Positions 2,098 to 16,835 of a DNA stretch of 35,082 bases are shown here, in pieces; positions within the stretch are counted from its first letter, which is position 1; every line of letters begins with the position of its first letter. Made by a program: the position numbers and the translations under genes. This DNA is from a virus: positions 1-35,082 of the IMG/VR virus record IMGVR_UViG_3300022687_000016, one strand, 5' to 3'. Below the pieces are notes generated by a model. It made no database searches and was not told the DNA's origin. It worked only from the letters and a program-made list of their open reading frames with translations.

Positions 2098-2453
2098 CCT
2101 TCCGCGCACCAGTCGTGGCGGTGACCGTCCCAGGCGACGGCCAGCCCGGCCGCGATGAGGTGTTCGCCTGCTTCTTCCCCGCCCACGAGGATCCGCGCCA
2201 GCGTTCGGCCATAGCGGTCTTCGCCCTCGCGCTCGATCGTCCATTGCCCGCCGGTCAGGAAGGCGGCGAGCTCGATCCGGGCGGTGACGGCGAGCTGACG
2301 CTCGGCGTCGCAGGCGGCGCGTCCGCCCATTTCCGGCGCGTCGATGCCGATCAGGCGGATGGTCTCGCCCGCGATCTCGACCGTGTCGCCATCGATCGTT
2401 CGGAAAGCCGGCGAGATCTGCAGCAAGGCCAGCGCGGTGAGGGTGGCAATCAC
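2094..2453 (-). CDS. Thermonuclease (SNase) family nuclease
   Basis: This 119-aa protein carries the staphylococcal nuclease core. It reads TIDGDTVEI (Asp21), RLIGIDAPE (Arg33, Asp38, Glu41) and DRYGRTLARI (Arg83), which correspond to the calcium-binding and catalytic residues of that family. It is a Ca-dependent endo/exonuclease family. The first 15 residues are hydrophobic (MIATLTALALLQISPA), a possible weak export signal without basic residues. The start is GTG, sharing GTGA with the repressor stop, so it should be made together with the repressor from the lysogenic transcript. Confidence 0.88.
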   Translation of the reverse strand: MIATLTALALLQISPAFRTIDGDTVEIAGETIRLIGIDAPEMGGRAACDAERQLAVTARIELAAFLTGGQWTIEREGEDRYGRTLARILVGGEEAGEHLIAAGLAVAWDGHRHDWCAEG

Positions 2454-3088
2454 CGCTTCGCCACTGAGGGGTCGGCGACCGATACGAAGGGCTGGGCCTT
2501 GACCAGTTCGACATCCTCGCGCAACGGGCTGCCGTCCCAGCTTTCCAGATTGTAGCGGCCGAATGTGTAGCCGCGGCGGACGACCTTGAAGAGCAGCTCG
2601 CCCGCCTTCGTCTCGACAATGCAGGCCTTGCCGATCACTTCGGCCGGGTCGATCGCGTCACGGTTGAGGCAATAGATGATCCAGCGGTCGGCGGCCGGGG
2701 GCATGGACAGGCCCCTTATCTCGTAGGCGACCAGGTCGGTGGAAGGCAGGATGCCGGGCGGATGGGCGACCTCGTAGAGCCCGTCATTCTCGCCCATCCC
2801 GTCCATCACCTGCACCGTTGCGCCCGCCCCGACGAAGCCCTTGACCCATATCCGCTTTTTCACAGGCTCGTAGGATTCACCGTAAAGCGCGGCAGGATTG
2901 AGGCCAAGGGCGGACGCAATCTTGCGCTCGTTTCTTGCGTTCAGCGTGTCGGAATAGCCGTTCAGGTAGGAGCGGATCGTTGCCGCGCTGACGCCGGTCG
3001 CGCGGGAAATAGCCGCGGCGCTGGTCAGGCCCGCGCCCGCCATCGTCCGTTTGAAGGCTTCGCGCCTGCGGTCGGCCCATTCGCTCAT
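2450..3088 (-). CDS. Phage repressor, HTH plus S24 LexA-like peptidase domain
   Basis: This is a 212-aa CI-like repressor. The N-terminal HTH spans residues 10-70 (AISRATGVSAATIRSYLNG). The C-terminal S24 domain has RGLSMPP with the serine nucleophile at 128 and LLFKVVRRG with the lysine at 168. A possible Ala-Gly cleavage site lies at 88-89 (VGAGATV), consistent with RecA-triggered self-cleavage. I chose the ATG at 3088 because it fits the family; an upstream ATG at 3145 would add 19 residues of poor sequence. No Shine-Dalgarno sequence is visible. It is divergent from the Cro-like gene, with a shared operator at 3156-3171. The proposed DNA target is TGATGA-N4-TCATCA. Confidence 0.88.
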   Translation of the reverse strand: MSEWADRRREAFKRTMAGAGLTSAAAISRATGVSAATIRSYLNGYSDTLNARNERKIASALGLNPAALYGESYEPVKKRIWVKGFVGAGATVQVMDGMGENDGLYEVAHPPGILPSTDLVAYEIRGLSMPPAADRWIIYCLNRDAIDPAEVIGKACIVETKAGELLFKVVRRGYTFGRYNLESWDGSPLREDVELVKAQPFVSVADPSVAKR

Positions 3089-3095
3089 GGACTGG

Positions 3096-3107
3096 CTTGT
3101 ACACAAG
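3096..3107. promoter_or_regulatory. Inverted repeat just upstream of the repressor start
   Basis: CTTGT-AC-ACAAG is a 12-bp inverted repeat ending eight bases before the repressor ATG. It differs from the TGATGA operator and could be a site for the Cro-like or another regulator. The role is inferred from position only. Confidence 0.35.
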
Positions 3108-3147
3108 AATCGGGCGCCCGCGTGCGGCGGGTTTCCAACGTTCATGG

Positions 3148-3176
3148 TTGACGAGTGATGAAAAATCATCATTCTC
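3148..3176 (+). promoter_or_regulatory. Rightward early promoter with repressor operator
   Basis: TTGACG (3148-3153), a 17-base spacer and ATTCTC (3171-3176) form a promoter. The spacer contains the operator TGATGA-AAAA-TCATCA (3156-3171). It matches the minus-strand promoter at 1251-1223 almost base for base from -35 through -10. The predicted start falls at about 3183, directly at the ATG of the Cro-like gene. Confidence 0.7.
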
Positions 3177-3183
3177 CCGATTC

Positions 3184-3423
3184 ATGCAGACGCAATCTCA
3201 CATCGAAGCCGTCCAGTCGCGCCTTCGCTCGGCGCTAAAACGCGGTGCTGTGGCCAATGATCAGCTCGTTGCGCAGTGCGGCGTGCCGCTGCCGACTCTG
3301 CGCATGATGGCGCGGCCAAACTGGCGGCCCCGGTCGATCGAGAACTTGATCGCGGTCGAGCGCGCACTGGCCGATGAACCCGGCGCTAGCCCTGTCGCAC
3401 CCGACACCGAGGCCTCGCAATGA
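3184..3423 (+). CDS. Small Cro-like regulator
   Basis: This 79-aa basic protein is transcribed divergently from the repressor. An HTH-like stretch runs through residues 20-60 (GAVANDQLVAQCGVPLPTLRMMARPNWRPRS). The position opposite the S24 repressor and next to the operator fits a Cro counterpart, though the sequence is not a textbook Cro. I chose the ATG at 3184; the frame is open further upstream, but that would run through the promoter. No Shine-Dalgarno sequence precedes it and the -10 ends only seven bases upstream, so the message is probably leaderless. Confidence 0.6.
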   Translation: MQTQSHIEAVQSRLRSALKRGAVANDQLVAQCGVPLPTLRMMARPNWRPRSIENLIAVERALADEPGASPVAPDTEASQ

Positions 3424-4495: not shown

Positions 4496-5005
4496 ATGTC
4501 TGACGGCTTCCTTTGTCCCGGCGACCGCCGGTCGCTGAAACAGGCGTTCTCGGTGGCCCTCAAAAAAGCCGGCGGGCAGTCGGCTGCCGCCGAGCACACG
4601 CGCGTCGATCAGACGACGCTGAGCCGCGCGGCCAGCTTTACCAATCCGGACTGCGCCGAGTGCTTCCCCGCCGCCGACACGGTGGTCGAGGTCGACCTGC
4701 TCGCCGGGGAGCCGGTGATGCTGCGCGCGCTGGCGCGCCTTCTGGGGCAGGCGCTGGTTCCGCTGCCGGTGATCGATGCCGCCGCGCCCGGCGGGGCGGA
4801 GGCGGCGCGTGTCGTCACCGAGCTGGGCCAGGTGCTGACCGCGCTCGGCCAGGCGCTGAGCGATGATGGCCGGGTCGGCTCGGTCGCCGAGATCGACGCC
4901 ATCCTGCCCGAACTGGACGACGGGGGCGATGCGATCGCCCGCCTGAAACACGTCCTGGTTCATCGCCGGGCGGCGCTGCTGGCTTCGGAGGGGCGTACGT
5001 CATGA
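4496..5005 (+). CDS. CII-like phage regulatory protein
   Basis: This 169-aa protein has an N-terminal HTH around residues 14-45 (LKQAFSVALKKAGGQSAAAEHTRVDQTTLSRAASF), followed by a conserved ECFPAADTVVEVDLLAGEP stretch and helices to the C-terminus. The layout matches a group of small phage activators or regulators loosely called CII-like. It is the first gene of the long rightward early operon. ATG 4496 follows a GGGGG; an out-of-frame ATG at 4491 is ignored. Palindromic repeat 2 (4520-4541) falls within its first 16 codons and encodes GDRRSLK. A regulatory role is inferred. Confidence 0.55.
   Translation: MSDGFLCPGDRRSLKQAFSVALKKAGGQSAAAEHTRVDQTTLSRAASFTNPDCAECFPAADTVVEVDLLAGEPVMLRALARLLGQALVPLPVIDAAAPGGAEAARVVTELGQVLTALGQALSDDGRVGSVAEIDAILPELDDGGDAIARLKHVLVHRRAALLASEGRTS
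4520..4541. repeat. Palindromic repeat family 2, copy 2
   Basis: GCGACCG-C-CGGTCGC (4521-4535) is a perfect palindrome followed by TGAAAC. It is the same element as 8931-8951 and lies inside the 5' end of the CII-like gene. Confidence 0.6.
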
Positions 5006-5193
5006 CCCGGCCCGGCTTTCCCCATACCCGCAAGCTGAAGCAGCGCCGCGCCGGGCATGGCGCGGGTGTGTGGTCGCTGGCCTTGGCCGCCGCCGTGCTG
5101 GGCGCGGTTCTGCTCGCCGTCATGGCGACCCTGCCGCGCCCCTTCGTGACGGACGCTTTCGCGCCCTCCTCAGGACAGGGGGATGAGCTGTGA
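5002..5193 (+). CDS. Small single-pass membrane protein
   Basis: This 63-aa protein has a basic N-terminus (HTRKLKQRR), one transmembrane helix (about residues 22-43, VWSLALAAAVLGAVLLAVMATL) and a short tail. The tail is encoded by the palindromic repeat at 5140-5180 (PSSGQG). It overlaps the previous gene with ATGA, and its TGA overlaps the GTG of the next. The function is unknown. Confidence 0.6.
   Translation: MTRPGFPHTRKLKQRRAGHGAGVWSLALAAAVLGAVLLAVMATLPRPFVTDAFAPSSGQGDEL
5140..5180. repeat. REP-like palindromic element, copy 1
   Basis: CCCTTCGTGACG, a variable middle, then CTCCTCAGGACAGGG. This is the host-type element also seen at 5573, 7059 and 9368. It forms the 3' end of the small membrane protein gene and adds the residues SSGQG. 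Confidence 0.7.
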
Positions 5194-5648
5194 GCGGGGC
5201 GGCGCAGATCTCCGCGACCTTCGACTGGCACCGGTCGCGCTTTACCGTCACCGGCTGGGCCGAGGCCGGGCGCTGGATCGCCGTGTCGGGCGTGGTCGCG
5301 CACATGGGTGCGGGCCAGTCTGGTCGCGCGGACGGTGATGATGCGCGGGCCATCGTCCAGGCCGCCGGCGTCGTGGCCGACTTTCTCGCCGACCTTTCCG
5401 ACGCCGCGCGGGCCGACCCGGACCGCGCCGCCAGCACGCTGCAGGATTTTGCCGAAGCCCTGAGCCGCACGCCGATGTCGGCCGCCTCGGCCCTGGGCGC
5501 TCTGCTCGCCGCGATGGCGGGGGCGGAGACCGGTTCCGATTCCAAGACCATTCAACCGGATCCCCGTCTTCACCCTTCGAGACGCGCCGATGGCGCTCCT
5601 CAGGACGGGCGGGAAAACGAGGAGGTTTCCCATGGCGATCGATCCTGA
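5190..5648 (+). CDS. Unknown 152-aa early protein ending in a repeat
   Basis: The start is GTG (GTGA overlap with the preceding stop). The N-terminal half looks like a beta-rich domain (ISATFDWHRSRFTVTGWAEAGRW), followed by a helical region (residues 50-110). No family was recognised. The last 25 residues are read through REP-like copy 2 (5573-5609), in a different frame from the other copies (GAPQDGR). The natural C-terminus may therefore have been replaced. It overlaps the next gene's Shine-Dalgarno sequence and start. Confidence 0.6.
   Translation: MSGAAQISATFDWHRSRFTVTGWAEAGRWIAVSGVVAHMGAGQSGRADGDDARAIVQAAGVVADFLADLSDAARADPDRAASTLQDFAEALSRTPMSAASALGALLAAMAGAETGSDSKTIQPDPRLHPSRRADGAPQDGRENEEVSHGDRS
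5573..5609. repeat. REP-like palindromic element, copy 2
   Basis: CCCTTCGAGACGCGCC-GAT-GGCGCTCCTCAGGACGGG is the copy closest to the chromosomal consensus; the GCGCC/GGCGC halves can pair. It sits in the 3' end of the gene at 5190. Confidence 0.75.
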
Positions 5649-6041: not shown

Positions 6042-7111
6042 CCCAGATTGAATGGACGCATATGCCCGGGTTCAAGGGCGAGACCTGGAACCCGGTGGTC
6101 GGGTGCCAGATCGTCTCGAAGGGCTGCACGAATTGCTATGCGATGCGGCAGGCCGCGCGCCTGCTCGATGGCAATCCCAAGACGCCACACTATGCCGGTA
6201 CGACTCGCCAAGTGAACGGGCAGGCGGTCTGGACCGGCAAGATCGGGATGGCGCCTGACACCGCCTTCAACGCGCCGCTGCGGGCCAAGGCGCCGCGATG
6301 CTATTTCGTGAACTCGATGGGCGACCTCTTTGCCGAGGGCGTGCCGGATGGCTGGATCGACCGGGCCTTCGCGGTGATGGCCCTGACGCCGCAGCACCGC
6401 TACCTGATCCTGACGAAGCGGCCCGACCGGATGCGGGCGTATCTGTCTGCGGAGTGCCGCGGGCGCGAGATCACGGCTGCGATGTTTGGTCTGCGGGCGG
6501 GCGAACCGTTGAGCTACGCCGGGCCTTGGCCCCTGAAGAATGTCTGGCTGGGCGTCAGCGTCGAGGACCAGGCGGCGGCGGACAGCCGTATTCCCGACTT
6601 GCTGGCGACGCCGGCGGCGGTGCGCTTTATCTCTGCCGAACCGTTGCTCGGTCCGGTCGATCTGACATCGATCCGCCGGCGCGAAGCCGAGGGCTTCATG
6701 CGTCCGCTCGACGGGCGGTTGAGCCGCATCGACTGGGTGATCGCCGGCGGTGAGTCCGGCAAGGGCGCGCGGCCGATGCACCCGGACTGGGCGCGGGGGC
6801 TGCGTGACCAGTGCGCGGCGGCGGGTGTGGCGTTTTTCCTGAAACAGTGGGGGCAATGGCTGCCGATCTATGACCGGGATCGAGAGGATCCGGACTGGCA
6901 GCATGTCGGCGAGGCGGAACGTCTCTCGCCGAAGGGCCGCTGGCTGAACCTGGAGGGCGGTCACGGGTTTCATGGCGAGCGGGTCGTTCGTGTTGATCGC
7001 GTCGGCAAGACCGCCGCTGGCGCGCGCCTGGATGGCGTCGAGCACCGCGCCTTTCCCGCACTTCGCGACGCGGGCGATGCCCGCTCCTCAGGACAGGGAG
7101 GCGCGGCATGA
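6038..7111 (+). CDS. DUF5131 (phage Gp37/Gp68) family protein
   Basis: This 357-aa protein opens with IEWTHMPGFKGETWNPVVGC and a cysteine cluster C23-x6-C30-x2-C33-Y (GCTNCYAMRQA). It continues with FVNSMGDLF, LILTKRPDRM, NVWLGVSVED, ISAEPLLGPVDL and WVIAGGESGKGARPMHPDW, all hallmarks of the phage Gp37/Gp68 family. The cysteine cluster resembles radical-SAM type sites; the chemistry is unproven. The family C-terminus (VGKTAAGARLDGVEH) is followed by about 20 extra residues encoded by REP-like copy 3 (ALRDAGDARSSGQGGAA). It overlaps both neighbours with ATGA. Confidence 0.9.
   Translation: MTQIEWTHMPGFKGETWNPVVGCQIVSKGCTNCYAMRQAARLLDGNPKTPHYAGTTRQVNGQAVWTGKIGMAPDTAFNAPLRAKAPRCYFVNSMGDLFAEGVPDGWIDRAFAVMALTPQHRYLILTKRPDRMRAYLSAECRGREITAAMFGLRAGEPLSYAGPWPLKNVWLGVSVEDQAAADSRIPDLLATPAAVRFISAEPLLGPVDLTSIRRREAEGFMRPLDGRLSRIDWVIAGGESGKGARPMHPDWARGLRDQCAAAGVAFFLKQWGQWLPIYDRDREDPDWQHVGEAERLSPKGRWLNLEGGHGFHGERVVRVDRVGKTAAGARLDGVEHRAFPALRDAGDARSSGQGGAA
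7059..7098. repeat. REP-like palindromic element, copy 3
   Basis: CACTTCGCGACGC, a variable middle, then CTCCTCAGGACAGGG. It forms the last codons of the DUF5131 gene, beyond its conserved C-terminus, and ends ten bases before the next start. Confidence 0.7.
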
Positions 7112-8342: not shown

Positions 8343-8596
8343 CCGCTGCCCCGATGACCCGATACTGGATTCGGTTCGACGTGATCGGGCCGCGGCTGGA
8401 AACGCTGTCCGACACCGGCTGGCGCGCCCGCGAGGGGAATTGGCGCGAGGCCATCATGCGCCTGATCGACCGATTCAGTTATCACCCCGGGCCGTGCGAC
8501 GATGATGAAGGTCAGCTGATCTCTCTTCTGCCGGGCGGATTGGGCCTGAAACGCGTTTGCGTTCGGTTGACCCCGCCGGAAGGCGGTGCGGCATGA
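8339..8596 (+). CDS. Unknown 85-aa protein
   Basis: This short protein (YWIRFDVIGPRLETLSDTGWRAREGNWREAIMRLIDRF) looks alpha/beta with a beta-strand start. No family was recognised. It is coupled by ATGA overlaps to the LexA-like and GcrA-like genes. Confidence 0.6.
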   Translation: MTAAPMTRYWIRFDVIGPRLETLSDTGWRAREGNWREAIMRLIDRFSYHPGPCDDDEGQLISLLPGGLGLKRVCVRLTPPEGGAA

Positions 8597-10248
8597 CCGC
8601 CGCCGCCCGTCTCCCTGAGGTCCGGATCAAGGCGTTCTCGCCGAAGGCGATCGATGTGGCCACGCGCGCCGCGGCGGCGCATTTCCGGGTGCGGGAGGGG
8701 GCGGAGCTGCCGCCCCCGGCCCGGCGCGCGGCGGTGTTCGGCCTGTCCATCTTCTTCCGCACGGGCGGGCCGGAGGCGGCGGTTCTGGCCGGCGTGGCGG
8801 CCGATACCGAGGCGGGCGCGGCCCTGCTCGCCCCCGGCTATATCAGCGGGGAGGCGGCGGGGAAGGCAGCGCTGTCGGTCGCCGATGCGCTGAACTGGGC
8901 CTTCGTGTGGAAGCGTGAATCGGAAACTCAACGACCGCCGGTCGCTGAAACGCCTGTGCCGAACGCGCCGCGCAAGACGCGCGCCGAGGGCTGGTCCGAT
9001 GCGGAGCTGGAGACGCTGCGCGCGGGACGGGCGGCGGGCAAGAAGGTGGCGGCGCTGATGGCCGACCTGCCCGGGCGGACGGAAGGCGCGATCCATACCA
9101 AGATCCGCGATCTGAAACTGCCGCCCGCCAAGGTGGAACGCGACACGCCCGGGGCCTGGAGCGAGGCGGAGAATGCCATCGTCGCGCGCGGCCGGGCGCG
9201 GGGCGAAAAGTACACGGTGATTGCTGCGCGCCTGCCGGGGCGCAAGCCGGCGTCCTGCCGTGTCCAGGCGCAGAAGCTGGGCATCACGAAACGGCGCACG
9301 CCCGGCAGCGAAGCCGTGGCCGTGGCCCCTGTCACCGAGCGGTCGATCCACCATCCCGCCAAAGGCGCCCTTCGAGACGGCAGCGAAGCCGCCTCCTCAG
9401 GACAGGGCGCCGGCGGGCCGTGGAGCGACGGCGAGCGCGACGCACTGAAGGCCGCGCGGCTGAGCGGCGAGCGATGGACCGAGACGCTGAAGCGCTTCCC
9501 GGGCCGGACGATGAATGGCGTGCGCGCGGAGTTTGGCCGCCTGACAGCCGATGATCCGGACCTGCTGGAGCGGGCCCGCGAGGCCAGTGCCCGCATGCGC
9601 GCCGGGGGCAGGGGGCCACGATGGACGCCGGACGAGGATGCCATCGTGCGCGCCGGGGTCGAGGCCGGGCGATCCGACGCGGACATCGCGGCGGATCTGA
9701 AGCGCCGCACGCCGGAGGCGGTGCGCAGCCGGGCCAAGGTGCTGCGCATTCACACCCGACCGACCGAGGCCGAAAAGCTGGCCGGGGCGCAGGCGGCCGT
9801 GATCTGGACGCCGGCGGACGATGCGGTGATCGCCGAGATCGCCGCGAAGGGGTACAGCGCCGACACCGCCATCGCGCGCCTGCCGCGCCACGACCGGGAC
9901 ATGGTCCGCGCGAAGCTGGCCATGGCCGAGCGGCGCGCACGGCGGGAGGCGCATCCGAGGGGCGAGGCGATCTCGTCCGGCCCGGCCATCGAAGGGGCGG
10001 AAAACCGGGGTGTGAACGCGGCCCTGTCGCTGGCCCCGAAACAGTGCCGCTGGCCGGTCGGCGATCCGCGCGAACCGGACTTCCATTTCTGCGGCGCGGC
10101 GAAGGTGCGGGGCCAGTACTGCGCCGCCCATGCGGCGATGGCCTACCCCCCGAAACAGAAGCGCCGCCGGGCGAGGCAGGACGCCGCGGCCGCGCTCGAT
10201 TCCCTTCAAGCCCTGCGCGAAGCCCGGATCAGGAGGGCAGTGCAATGA
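8593..10248 (+). CDS. Multi-repeat GcrA-like protein with five SANT/Myb-like DNA-binding repeats
   Basis: This 551-aa protein has an N-terminal helical domain (residues 10-105) that loosely resembles a degenerate DnaA domain IV. Five related repeats of about 44 residues follow at 133-176, 188-231, 276-317, 343-386 and 404-444. Each begins W-S/T-x-x-E/D and ends with a recognition-helix pattern (GRTEGAIHTKIRDLKL type), as in the GcrA N-terminus. The C-terminus (residues 484-518: CRWPVGDPREPDFHFCGAA, YCAAHAAMAY) is the GcrA sigma-70-interacting domain with its Cys residues kept. Host GcrA has one HTH and about 170 residues. Two palindromic repeats lie in linkers (8931-8951, 9368-9407). It probably redirects sigma-70 holoenzyme; that is inference. 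Confidence 0.85.
   Translation: MTAAARLPEVRIKAFSPKAIDVATRAAAAHFRVREGAELPPPARRAAVFGLSIFFRTGGPEAAVLAGVAADTEAGAALLAPGYISGEAAGKAALSVADALNWAFVWKRESETQRPPVAETPVPNAPRKTRAEGWSDAELETLRAGRAAGKKVAALMADLPGRTEGAIHTKIRDLKLPPAKVERDTPGAWSEAENAIVARGRARGEKYTVIAARLPGRKPASCRVQAQKLGITKRRTPGSEAVAVAPVTERSIHHPAKGALRDGSEAASSGQGAGGPWSDGERDALKAARLSGERWTETLKRFPGRTMNGVRAEFGRLTADDPDLLERAREASARMRAGGRGPRWTPDEDAIVRAGVEAGRSDADIAADLKRRTPEAVRSRAKVLRIHTRPTEAEKLAGAQAAVIWTPADDAVIAEIAAKGYSADTAIARLPRHDRDMVRAKLAMAERRARREAHPRGEAISSGPAIEGAENRGVNAALSLAPKQCRWPVGDPREPDFHFCGAAKVRGQYCAAHAAMAYPPKQKRRRARQDAAAALDSLQALREARIRRAVQ
8931..8951. repeat. Palindromic repeat family 2, copy 3
   Basis: ACGACCGCCGGTCGCTGAAAC, sharing 20 bases with the copy at 4520. 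It encodes RPPVAET in the linker before the first repeat of the GcrA-like protein. Confidence 0.6.
9368..9407. repeat. REP-like palindromic element, copy 4
   Basis: CCCTTCGAGACGG, a variable middle, then CTCCTCAGGACAGGG. It is in frame in the linker between DNA-binding repeats 2 and 3 of the GcrA-like protein, encoding ALRDGSEAASSGQG. Confidence 0.75.
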
Positions 10249-12613: not shown

Positions 12614-12874
12614 ATGAGCTACGAGCTGTCTCAACGGGTGGTGCCCATCCGGATGGGCACGTGCGCCCAAAAGCTGGTCCTGTTCCTGGCGGCATTTCAC
12701 GCGAGTCCGCGTGGCATCTGTCACATGACGCGGTCTGAATTGGCCGAGGCGGCGAGTTGCAGTGTGCGGACCGTCGACCGGGCCACGGCCTTCTGGACCC
12801 AGAGGGGCCTGATGTGGCGCACGCCAACCGGTGCGCTTCGCGTGCGCATTCCGAAGAAGGGAGCGCGCGGATGA
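12614..12874 (+). CDS. Small winged-helix DNA-binding protein
   Basis: This 86-aa protein contains a winged helix (residues 20-80: QKLVLFLAAFHASPRG, MTRSELAEAASCSVRTVDRATAFWTQRGLMWRTPTGALRVRIPKK), the same type as the N-terminus of the next gene. A GGAGG Shine-Dalgarno sequence precedes ATG 12614. It overlaps the replication gene by ATGA, which suggests a joint role at the phage origin or in early control. Confidence 0.75.
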   Translation: MSYELSQRVVPIRMGTCAQKLVLFLAAFHASPRGICHMTRSELAEAASCSVRTVDRATAFWTQRGLMWRTPTGALRVRIPKKGARG

Positions 12875-13713
12875 GCCACAGGCATAACGACTGGGCCACC
12901 GAGGCCGTGTGTGAATCGGGTTCGGAAAAGGCGGTCTTGATGGTGATCGCCAACTATGTCGGCGTCGACGGCACGTGCTATCCGGGCCAAGACACTTTGG
13001 CGCGCAAGGCCTGCGTCAGCGTGAAAACGGTCGAACGCGCATTGAAGGCTTTCGAGGCGCGCGGGTGGATCGAGCGCAGGTTGCGCCGCCGAAAAGACGG
13101 GTCGCGCACATCGGATTTGATCATCATCACGGCTGTTCGTGCCGACGAGGCTTTTGAGGCGGCACAACCCGACAATTTGTCTGGTAGTGCCGAGGTGCCA
13201 ACCCGACATCCTGTCCAAAGTCACCCGACATCCTGTCCAAAGTCACCCGACACCATGTCGGGGCTCACTACGTTTGAACCCCCAGAGGAATCCCCAGTTG
13301 AAGAACCGCGCGCGATGCGCGCGCGCAAATCCACCTCTCCGAAATCGGAACGCCGGAAGGCGACCCGGCTGCCCGAGGGGTGGGAGCCGCCGGACGCATT
13401 CATCGAGGAGGCGGTGAGCATGGGCTTGACCGAGGCGGAAGCGCGGGCCGAGGCGCACCGGATGGCGAACTGGTCACGGGGCAGTCCGAACGGGGCGAAG
13501 CTCGATTGGCGGGCAACCTGGCGAAACTGGCTGACACGCAAACTGGAAGAAAAATCCCATGGACGACACGGCAGGACAGGCAATGACGAGCGGCACCGCG
13601 CCGCTTTCGGGCGTGCTCTTCGTGCCTTTGGCGGAGGGCCGGGCGATGGTGCGGGAGCGGGGCCTGACGGCGGCGGTGCGCCGCCACGCCTCGGACTTGA
13701 AGGCCCGCCTTGA
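12871..13713 (+). CDS. Phage replication initiator-like protein (HTH plus DnaT-like C-terminus)
   Basis: The N-terminal winged helix (residues 15-75: SEKAVLMVIANYVGVDGTCYPGQDTLARKACVSVKTVERALKAFEARGWIERR) is the HTH_36 type found in replication protein O-like initiators. A variable linker contains a duplicated 20-bp segment (13206-13245, HPVQSHPTSCPKSHP region). The C-terminal part (LPEGWEPPDAFIEEAVSMGL...WRATWRNWLTRKL) resembles DnaT-type DNA-binding tails. The frame runs 155 bp into the next gene, and its last 50 residues are low-complexity Gly/Ala/Arg. A lost stop near 13560 is likely. Confidence 0.75.
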   Translation: MSHRHNDWATEAVCESGSEKAVLMVIANYVGVDGTCYPGQDTLARKACVSVKTVERALKAFEARGWIERRLRRRKDGSRTSDLIIITAVRADEAFEAAQPDNLSGSAEVPTRHPVQSHPTSCPKSPDTMSGLTTFEPPEESPVEEPRAMRARKSTSPKSERRKATRLPEGWEPPDAFIEEAVSMGLTEAEARAEAHRMANWSRGSPNGAKLDWRATWRNWLTRKLEEKSHGRHGRTGNDERHRAAFGRALRAFGGGPGDGAGAGPDGGGAPPRLGLEGPP

Positions 13714-15192: not shown

Positions 15193-15341
15193 GTCCCCCA
15201 GCTTCGGGAGTCACGTGACTCATTGCCCCGAAGCCTTCGGGAACGTATCAAACCAGTCATGTCACGAATTTGCGCCCGGCCGGACCCGATCCGCCGGGCG
15301 CTGTCGTCTCCCGATCCCGTCACCAAGCCAAGGAGGGCGCG
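15193..15341 (+). promoter_or_regulatory. Late-gene control region with nested inverted repeats
   Basis: GAGTCACGTGACTC (15208-15221) is a perfect 14-bp palindrome. It lies between GCTTCGGG (15201-15208) and CCCGAAGC (15227-15234). The latter pairs equally well with CTTCGGG (15235-15241), giving two exclusive hairpins. A third hairpin is GCGCCCGGC (15272-15280) with GCCGGGCGC (15293-15301). I could not place a clear -35/-10. The region separates early from late genes and probably holds the late promoter, terminator or antiterminator site. Confidence 0.55.
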
Positions 15342-15713
15342 ATGAACGCGACCTGCCGCAGCTGTCCCCATGCCCGCCCTGTCGAACCGGCGAAGGGCAA
15401 GGGCCCCGACCGCCAGTTCATCTGCCGCGCCAATGCCCCGCGGCCGGTGAGCGATGGCGGGGCCATCGTGCTGACCCAGTGGCCGGTGGTGCGCGCCAAT
15501 GACTGGTGCGGCCAGCATCCCGACCGGGGCCTGTCCGTCCCCGAGCCCGACCCGAGCGCGCTCGACGCGGCGACGGCCGATGCGATGGACAAGGATGCCT
15601 GCGATCTGAAGACGCGCGAGGGTGAGGGGGCTGAGGACGGAAAGCGCGGCCTGTTCGGCCTCGGTGGCGTCAAGGGCAAGAGAGGCCGCAAGACCGGGCG
15701 GGGTCGGAAATGA
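15342..15713 (+). CDS. Cys-rich small phage protein
   Basis: This 123-aa protein starts with a zinc-knuckle-like pattern (CRSCPH at residues 4-9, then FICRANAPRP, then VVRANDWCGQHP), four Cys plus His. It is a common small phage protein type of unknown function. The C-terminus is a Lys/Arg/Gly-rich tail (KGKRGRKTGRGRK), possibly nucleic-acid binding. A strong AAGGAGG Shine-Dalgarno sequence precedes ATG 15342. It is the first late gene. Confidence 0.7.
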   Translation: MNATCRSCPHARPVEPAKGKGPDRQFICRANAPRPVSDGGAIVLTQWPVVRANDWCGQHPDRGLSVPEPDPSALDAATADAMDKDACDLKTREGEGAEDGKRGLFGLGGVKGKRGRKTGRGRK

Positions 15714-16685: not shown

Positions 16686-16835
16686 CCCCCCTTGAGCGGG
16701 TCCTTCCGGCCGCCCCGCCGCCGTGGGTATATTCGCACCCGGGTGGTTGTGTAGCTGCAGGGGTGGGAGAAGCCGGAATCTTGAGGTTTGACGGGCGGAT
16801 CAGGGAAAGCGGGAGTCGGATCAAAGGGTTAGGCG

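Follow-up and report, generated by a model that had tools for sequence, protein, structure and literature searches.

A phage regulator that couples five Myb-like repeats to a GcrA-type sigma-interacting domain

One gene in the virus record IMGVR_UViG_3300022687_000016 raises the question of what kind of regulator arises when a long series of DNA-binding repeats is placed ahead of a tail resembling that of GcrA. The window, that is, the whole stretch of DNA analysed, comprises 35,082 bases with a GC content of 67.7%. A sequence-only reading had described the product as an expanded GcrA, and this description proves half right: the tail is a GcrA sigma-interacting domain (SID) and the fourth repeat folds like the GcrA DNA-binding domain, but the repeats are Myb- and phage-D5-like in sequence.

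The open reading frame starts at an ATG that overlaps the upstream ORF by 4 bp (ATGA), and its GC content by codon position (0.75/0.60/0.87) follows the pattern of a coding frame in a record of this composition. The AlphaFold2 model of the 551-aa product has a mean pLDDT of 72.3. The layout of the gene is as follows.

8593..10248, plus strand: coding sequence of the Myb-array / GcrA-SID regulator, 551 aa, ATG at 8593, stop ending at 10248
8593..8931, plus strand: N-terminal region, aa 1-113, helical at low confidence in AlphaFold2 (pLDDT 34-57), no known family
8925..8952, plus strand: 28-nt repeat element in the linker preceding repeat 1, with an inverted copy at 1188-1215 and a shorter copy at 4522-4544
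8992..9120, plus strand: Myb-like repeat 1, aa 134-176 (profiles and AlphaFold2)
9157..9285, plus strand: Myb-like repeat 2, aa 189-231 (profiles and AlphaFold2)
9347..9412, plus strand: 66-nt repeat element within the linker that joins repeats 2 and 3, sharing 71% identity with 7038-7103, its core CTCCTCAGGACAGG present at 4 places in the window
9421..9549, plus strand: Myb-like repeat 3, aa 277-319, weak in sequence signal and confidently modelled (profiles, AlphaFold2)
9622..9750, plus strand: Myb-like repeat 4, aa 344-386, the best Pfam Myb stretch, superposing on the GcrA DNA-binding domain (5yiv/5yiu)
9805..9933, plus strand: Myb-like repeat 5, aa 405-447, the weakest (profiles, AlphaFold2)
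10018..10149, plus strand: GcrA SID, aa about 476-519, with a Cys-Cys-Cys-His set at C485, C500, C510 and H513

A pattern-based scan of viral_contigs returned no viral relative of the N-terminal region. The idea that this region forms an HTH like that of DnaA domain IV was dropped, comparison with the neighbouring DnaA_C protein giving an E value of 0.55. The two small repeat elements lie in frame within linkers modelled at low confidence (pLDDT < 50, aa 113-131 and 240-272), a placement suggestive of small mobile palindromic elements inserted between domains. Further copies listed for them in the window are at 5163-5182, 5593-5612 and 7081-7100, and neither element has a match in 372 alphaproteobacterial genomes or in viral_contigs.

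The tail is the part of the protein that is tied most firmly to a known family. It scores 63.5 bits against Pfam GcrA (PF07750; cut-off 26.9) in a match that runs from repeat 4 into the SID, and phmmer aligns it with the SID of Caulobacter crescentus GcrA crystallised with sigma70 domain 2 (PDB 5yix_B, E 9e-12) and with full GcrA (7ye1, 1.2e-10). Residues 476-519 of the model superpose on 5yix_B at 1.1 Å over 44 residues, with 43% identity and a Z of 6.9. The intact sigma-binding tail that had been proposed is thus borne out in sequence and fold, the residues then singled out (484-518) being the core of the SID. In an alignment of 10 SIDs that includes the one studied here, all ten invariant columns are kept in the window protein, and the Cys-Cys-Cys-His set is invariant in 10 of 10. 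Fold and conserved residues make the tail a candidate for binding sigma70 domain 2. The complete protein reaches 54.8 bits against the NCBIfam equivalog NF050816, below the cut-off of 280, with the tail alone matching; because of this score, and because it lacks the HTH signature of the family, it is not filed as a GcrA. In action it would be GcrA-like at its tail.

The five repeats are related to one another, as had been proposed, and belong to a Myb-like family. A six-sequence profile of phage Myb-like domains, which contains no window sequence, matches all five in order at 13.4, 21.1, 7.8, 42.7 and 10.7 bits, scores that 0, 0, 1, 0 and 0 of 2000 shuffled versions of the protein reached; a mixed profile check agrees. 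When each repeat is compared with a profile of the other four, the scores are 28.0, 33.0, 8.4, 24.5 and 7.7 bits, repeats 3 and 5 being weak (the best of about 1850 shuffles gave 8.8 and 10.1). AlphaFold2 models all five as three-helix domains, with 10-residue blocks mostly at pLDDT 88-97 and repeat 5 at 75-80. Any duplication must be old, since pairwise identity between the repeats is only 7 to 17 of 43. They exceed the cut-off of PF00249 (47.5 bits against 24.4) in three separate stretches, and they match the PHROG family phrog_323, annotated as 'transcriptional regulator, D5-like', at 5.2e-20 over residues 286-455 in two stretches, in a library that has no curated cut-off.

Elsewhere the window has the following features.

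2450-3172, minus strand: CI-like repressor
3184-3423: Cro-like gene
4496-5005: CII-like activator
12757-13713: replication-initiator-like gene
16836 (start): terminase small-subunit ORF

The gene is preceded by one for a LexA-like HTH protein and followed by those for a DnaA_C-type HTH protein and the replication initiator; a gpA-type terminase, a lambda-type portal and head and tail genes lie further downstream, the late genes beginning at 15342 or 16836. This order, with CI-, Cro- and CII-like genes before and replication and late genes after, is that of a lambda-like temperate phage and puts the gene in its early/replication part, ahead of the late genes. The replication-initiator-like ORF carries a perfect 22-nt tandem duplication at 13201-13244, a length that is not a multiple of three. 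The record has no near DNA match among phages. Its terminase is closest to those of Roseobacter phages, at 43%, and to a genome sequence, at 46%, and the host was presumably an alphaproteobacterium.

The reading that we consider probable is that the protein is a phage transcription activator, in which a D5-like tandem Myb array joined to a GcrA SID recruits the host sigma70 holoenzyme to phage promoters with a new DNA specificity. Drawing on the gene itself, its repeats, the sequence and predicted fold of the SID, the missing GcrA signature and the early-operon position, we infer that the protein would bind DNA and sigma70 and activate transcription, with late genes as targets. The Myb array would bind several neighbouring sites in phage DNA while the SID would dock on domain 2 of the host primary sigma factor, and such docking would bring the holoenzyme to phage promoters and assist their opening. 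A single chain with five repeats could do without dimerisation and hold strongly to several sites at once. The target promoters would most likely be those of the late genes, a guess prompted by the gene order and by two gaps of control-region size before 15342 and 16836. Multivalent DNA binding combined with sigma70 recruitment appears to be the likeliest function, although the GcrA tail could be kept for some other reason.

Among the alternatives, all of them unlikely, the one that survives best is that the SID and host GcrA compete for sigma70 domain 2 and the array parks sigma70 on phage DNA, so that host cell-cycle transcription is damped and phage promoters are not activated. Sigma appropriation by phage proteins is well known, as passages of PMC7403470 relate, and a SID lacking a reader of methylated DNA would suit a competitor. 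Five DNA-binding repeats would nonetheless be superfluous for that purpose, and the SID function described in the same passages is activation (PMC7403470).

Slightly less probable still is an expanded GcrA in the proper sense, whose repeats would be diverged GcrA HTHs acting on clustered, CcrM-methylated GANTC sites. Structure gives this possibility some substance. Repeat 4 superposes on the GcrA DNA-binding domain 5yiv at 0.9 Å over 45 residues (Z 7.5), which rules out an unrelated fold, and on 5yiu at 1.4 Å over 49 (Z 8.0); Myb chains, with Myb R2R3 among the fold matches of the repeats, give Z values of about 6 to 7.4, and according to the VIA guidance values of this size can reflect just a common arrangement. 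Fold matches in BFVD comprise one D5 protein and several GcrA regulators. The GcrA DNA-binding domain and the Myb repeats are one kind of three-helix fold. It is the sequence that tells against GcrA HTH copies. No repeat scores above -1.2 bits, a value that 158 of 2000 shuffles reach, when compared with a profile built from 80 distinct host GcrA HTHs that had been filtered by motif. The recognition-helix signature N...GK.HR, whose conservation was rechecked without the motif filter, occurs in all 112 host SID ORFs read on the plus strand (from 141 loci picked largely by SID similarity, a few being the same gene fetched twice) and in none of the five repeats. The proposal that the repeats derive from GcrA HTHs, and hence read methylated GANTC, is not supported; as judged from sequence, the array is Myb/D5-like and not GcrA-type.

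The distribution of GANTC has also to be weighed here. The window holds 53 sites where 168 are expected from dinucleotides, and this ratio of 0.32 is the lowest of the 16 five-base palindrome classes. Eight of the 53 lie in hand-drawn intergenic gaps against 2.7 expected (P 0.005), on a rough gene map in which six boundaries are out of frame. Two pairs of sites stand upstream of the possible starts of the late genes.

15208..15221, no strand assigned: 14-bp palindrome GAGTCACGTGACTC with two GANTC sites (15208/15217), candidate control site in the gap before 15342
16776..16817, no strand assigned: two GANTC sites (16776/16813), candidate late control region in the 150-nt gap upstream of the 16836 ORF

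Depletion, with sites retained in the gaps and paired before the late genes, would fit the methylation reading; it also fits a CcrM-bearing alphaproteobacterial host, which it could simply mirror. The palindrome GAGTCACGTGACTC was ruled out as an operator family, given that it occurs once and that 85 of 100 shuffles hold at least one match at 3 mismatches. No promoters or terminators were found between 15100 and 16900, and no clustered binding site suited to five repeats was recognised.

How singular the sigma-recruiting array is was examined through its relatives, in searches from which records very near the window were possibly left out. No relative with repeats and SID together was recovered by tblastn in phages (22 records) or plasmids (13 records), the SID alone being matched in both, or by pattern-based scans of viral_contigs (queries: whole protein, N-terminus and repeats) and genome_contigs. 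The repeats found no match in 385 alphaproteobacterial genomes at E 1e-6, in a search that had no positive control. When the whole protein was compared with 82 genomes of one family, 81 gave one SID match, none of which extends over the repeats. PF07750 matches at least 241 of the 385 genomes, and expanded low scorers are possibly hidden among the remaining matches.

Three scans identified 49 viral contigs with a SID ORF besides the window, a set that was chosen by SID similarity and includes near-duplicates (47 distinct C-termini). A GcrA-type HTH at 10 bits or more is present in 44 of the 49, the exceptions being L138, L151, L152, L169 (truncated where the contig ends) and L171. The N...GK.HR signature is kept in 11 and lost in 38, and none of the 49 has five repeats. 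The architectures are varied. L172 (aa from 4593; IMG/VR 3300020202_000067) combines a D5-like double HTH, matched by phrog_323 at 7.8e-16 over both copies, with a SID; both HTHs are confidently predicted in its model, and the GcrA profile scores the first weakly (4.9 bits, reached by 2 of 1000 shuffles) and the second as GcrA-like (40.4 bits). A gpA terminase was not found in the L172 phage. L165 has two HTHs before the SID (12.3 and 33.1 bits, 0 of 1000 shuffles each), and L157 may have a second, different HTH there, weak in sequence. L138 carries a SID (Pfam GcrA 41.4 bits) and HTH matches that all lie below cut-off, its HTH being probably XRE-like. In L151 and L152 the N-terminus ahead of the SID contains no GcrA HTH. 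The viral proteins L008-L016, a family some 150 aa long, lack the SID and link the two domain types by placing a GcrA-like HTH after a Myb-like repeat. The viral protein L142 is close to C. crescentus GcrA by phmmer, so that a recent host origin is possible for some of the viral SID ORFs.

The least probable reading, that of a D5-like DNA-binding or repressor protein with the SID as a functionless fused remnant, can appeal to the D5-like repeats as the larger part of the protein and to the failure to find relatives of the whole architecture, but it is poorly compatible with a SID that keeps its fold and all 10 invariant columns and with the recurrence of the D5-like and SID pairing in L172.

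Across the viral set the tail is kept while the HTHs vary, and the window protein stands at the extreme of that range. Conservation of the SID among the 49 ORFs is partly by construction, since the set was chosen by SID similarity; this inflates the contrast between a constant tail and a changing reader, but the host set was chosen largely likewise. The window protein and the signature loss in 38 of 49 ORFs suggest that phages keep the grip on sigma and change the DNA address; if so, they offer a natural set of sigma70-recruiting activators with differing DNA specificities. It is about an even bet that the GcrA SID serves phages of Alphaproteobacteria as a portable module for recruiting sigma70, put on DNA readers that range from drifted GcrA HTHs through double and XRE-like HTHs to a five-repeat Myb array. 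With such a SID, GcrA-type activation would no longer depend on CcrM methylation, and a phage could capture the host holoenzyme for its own promoters. In the excerpted texts of PMC3556154 and PMC6630229, phage GcrA homologues have so far been read as switching on host replication genes via methylated host promoters. The recognition helix of the phiCbK homologue (L106), SAVCGKADR, departs from the host signature, an observation that bears on the idea of phage GcrA acting at host promoters.

Of the known systems, GcrA (PF07750; NF050816), the sigma70 cofactor of Alphaproteobacteria, is the natural first comparison. The window protein resembles it in the sequence and predicted fold of the SID and in having a three-helix DNA-binding fold before it. 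The differences lie in size and reader: GcrA has about 173 aa and a single N-terminal HTH bearing N...GK.HR, whereas the window protein has 551 aa and five Myb/D5-like repeats and lacks such an HTH. According to portions of PMC3667746, GcrA is a dimer that binds promoters via its HTH, recruits RNA polymerase and prefers N6-methylated GANTC DNA; PMC7403470 adds that the SID attaches to sigma2 and aids formation of the open complex. With the phiCbK-type homologues, which the excerpted PMC3556154 proposes to raise host replication genes, the window protein shares a phage-borne SID, but these have one HTH and about 180 aa.

Tandem Myb-like repeats are common to the window protein and the phrog_323 D5-like family, whereas the combination of five repeats with a SID belongs to the former. 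The family is named after the D5 protein of phage T5, which has a role in late transcription, one not described in the papers that searches of open-access PMC returned. L172 also unites D5-like tandem HTHs and a SID in one chain, but it has two HTHs and belongs to a different phage. MotA/AsiA of phage T4 comprises two proteins that engage a different sigma region and have folds unrelated to the window protein. Sigma redirection is what they have in common with its proposed role, for in sigma appropriation (PMC6755090) phage factors act on sigma to redirect host RNA polymerase. Searches of open-access PMC turned up no description of a GcrA domain joined to tandem Myb repeats. Both the sigma-recruiting domain and the type of phage DNA-binding array are known; what is new here is their combination, which was found once more, in L172.
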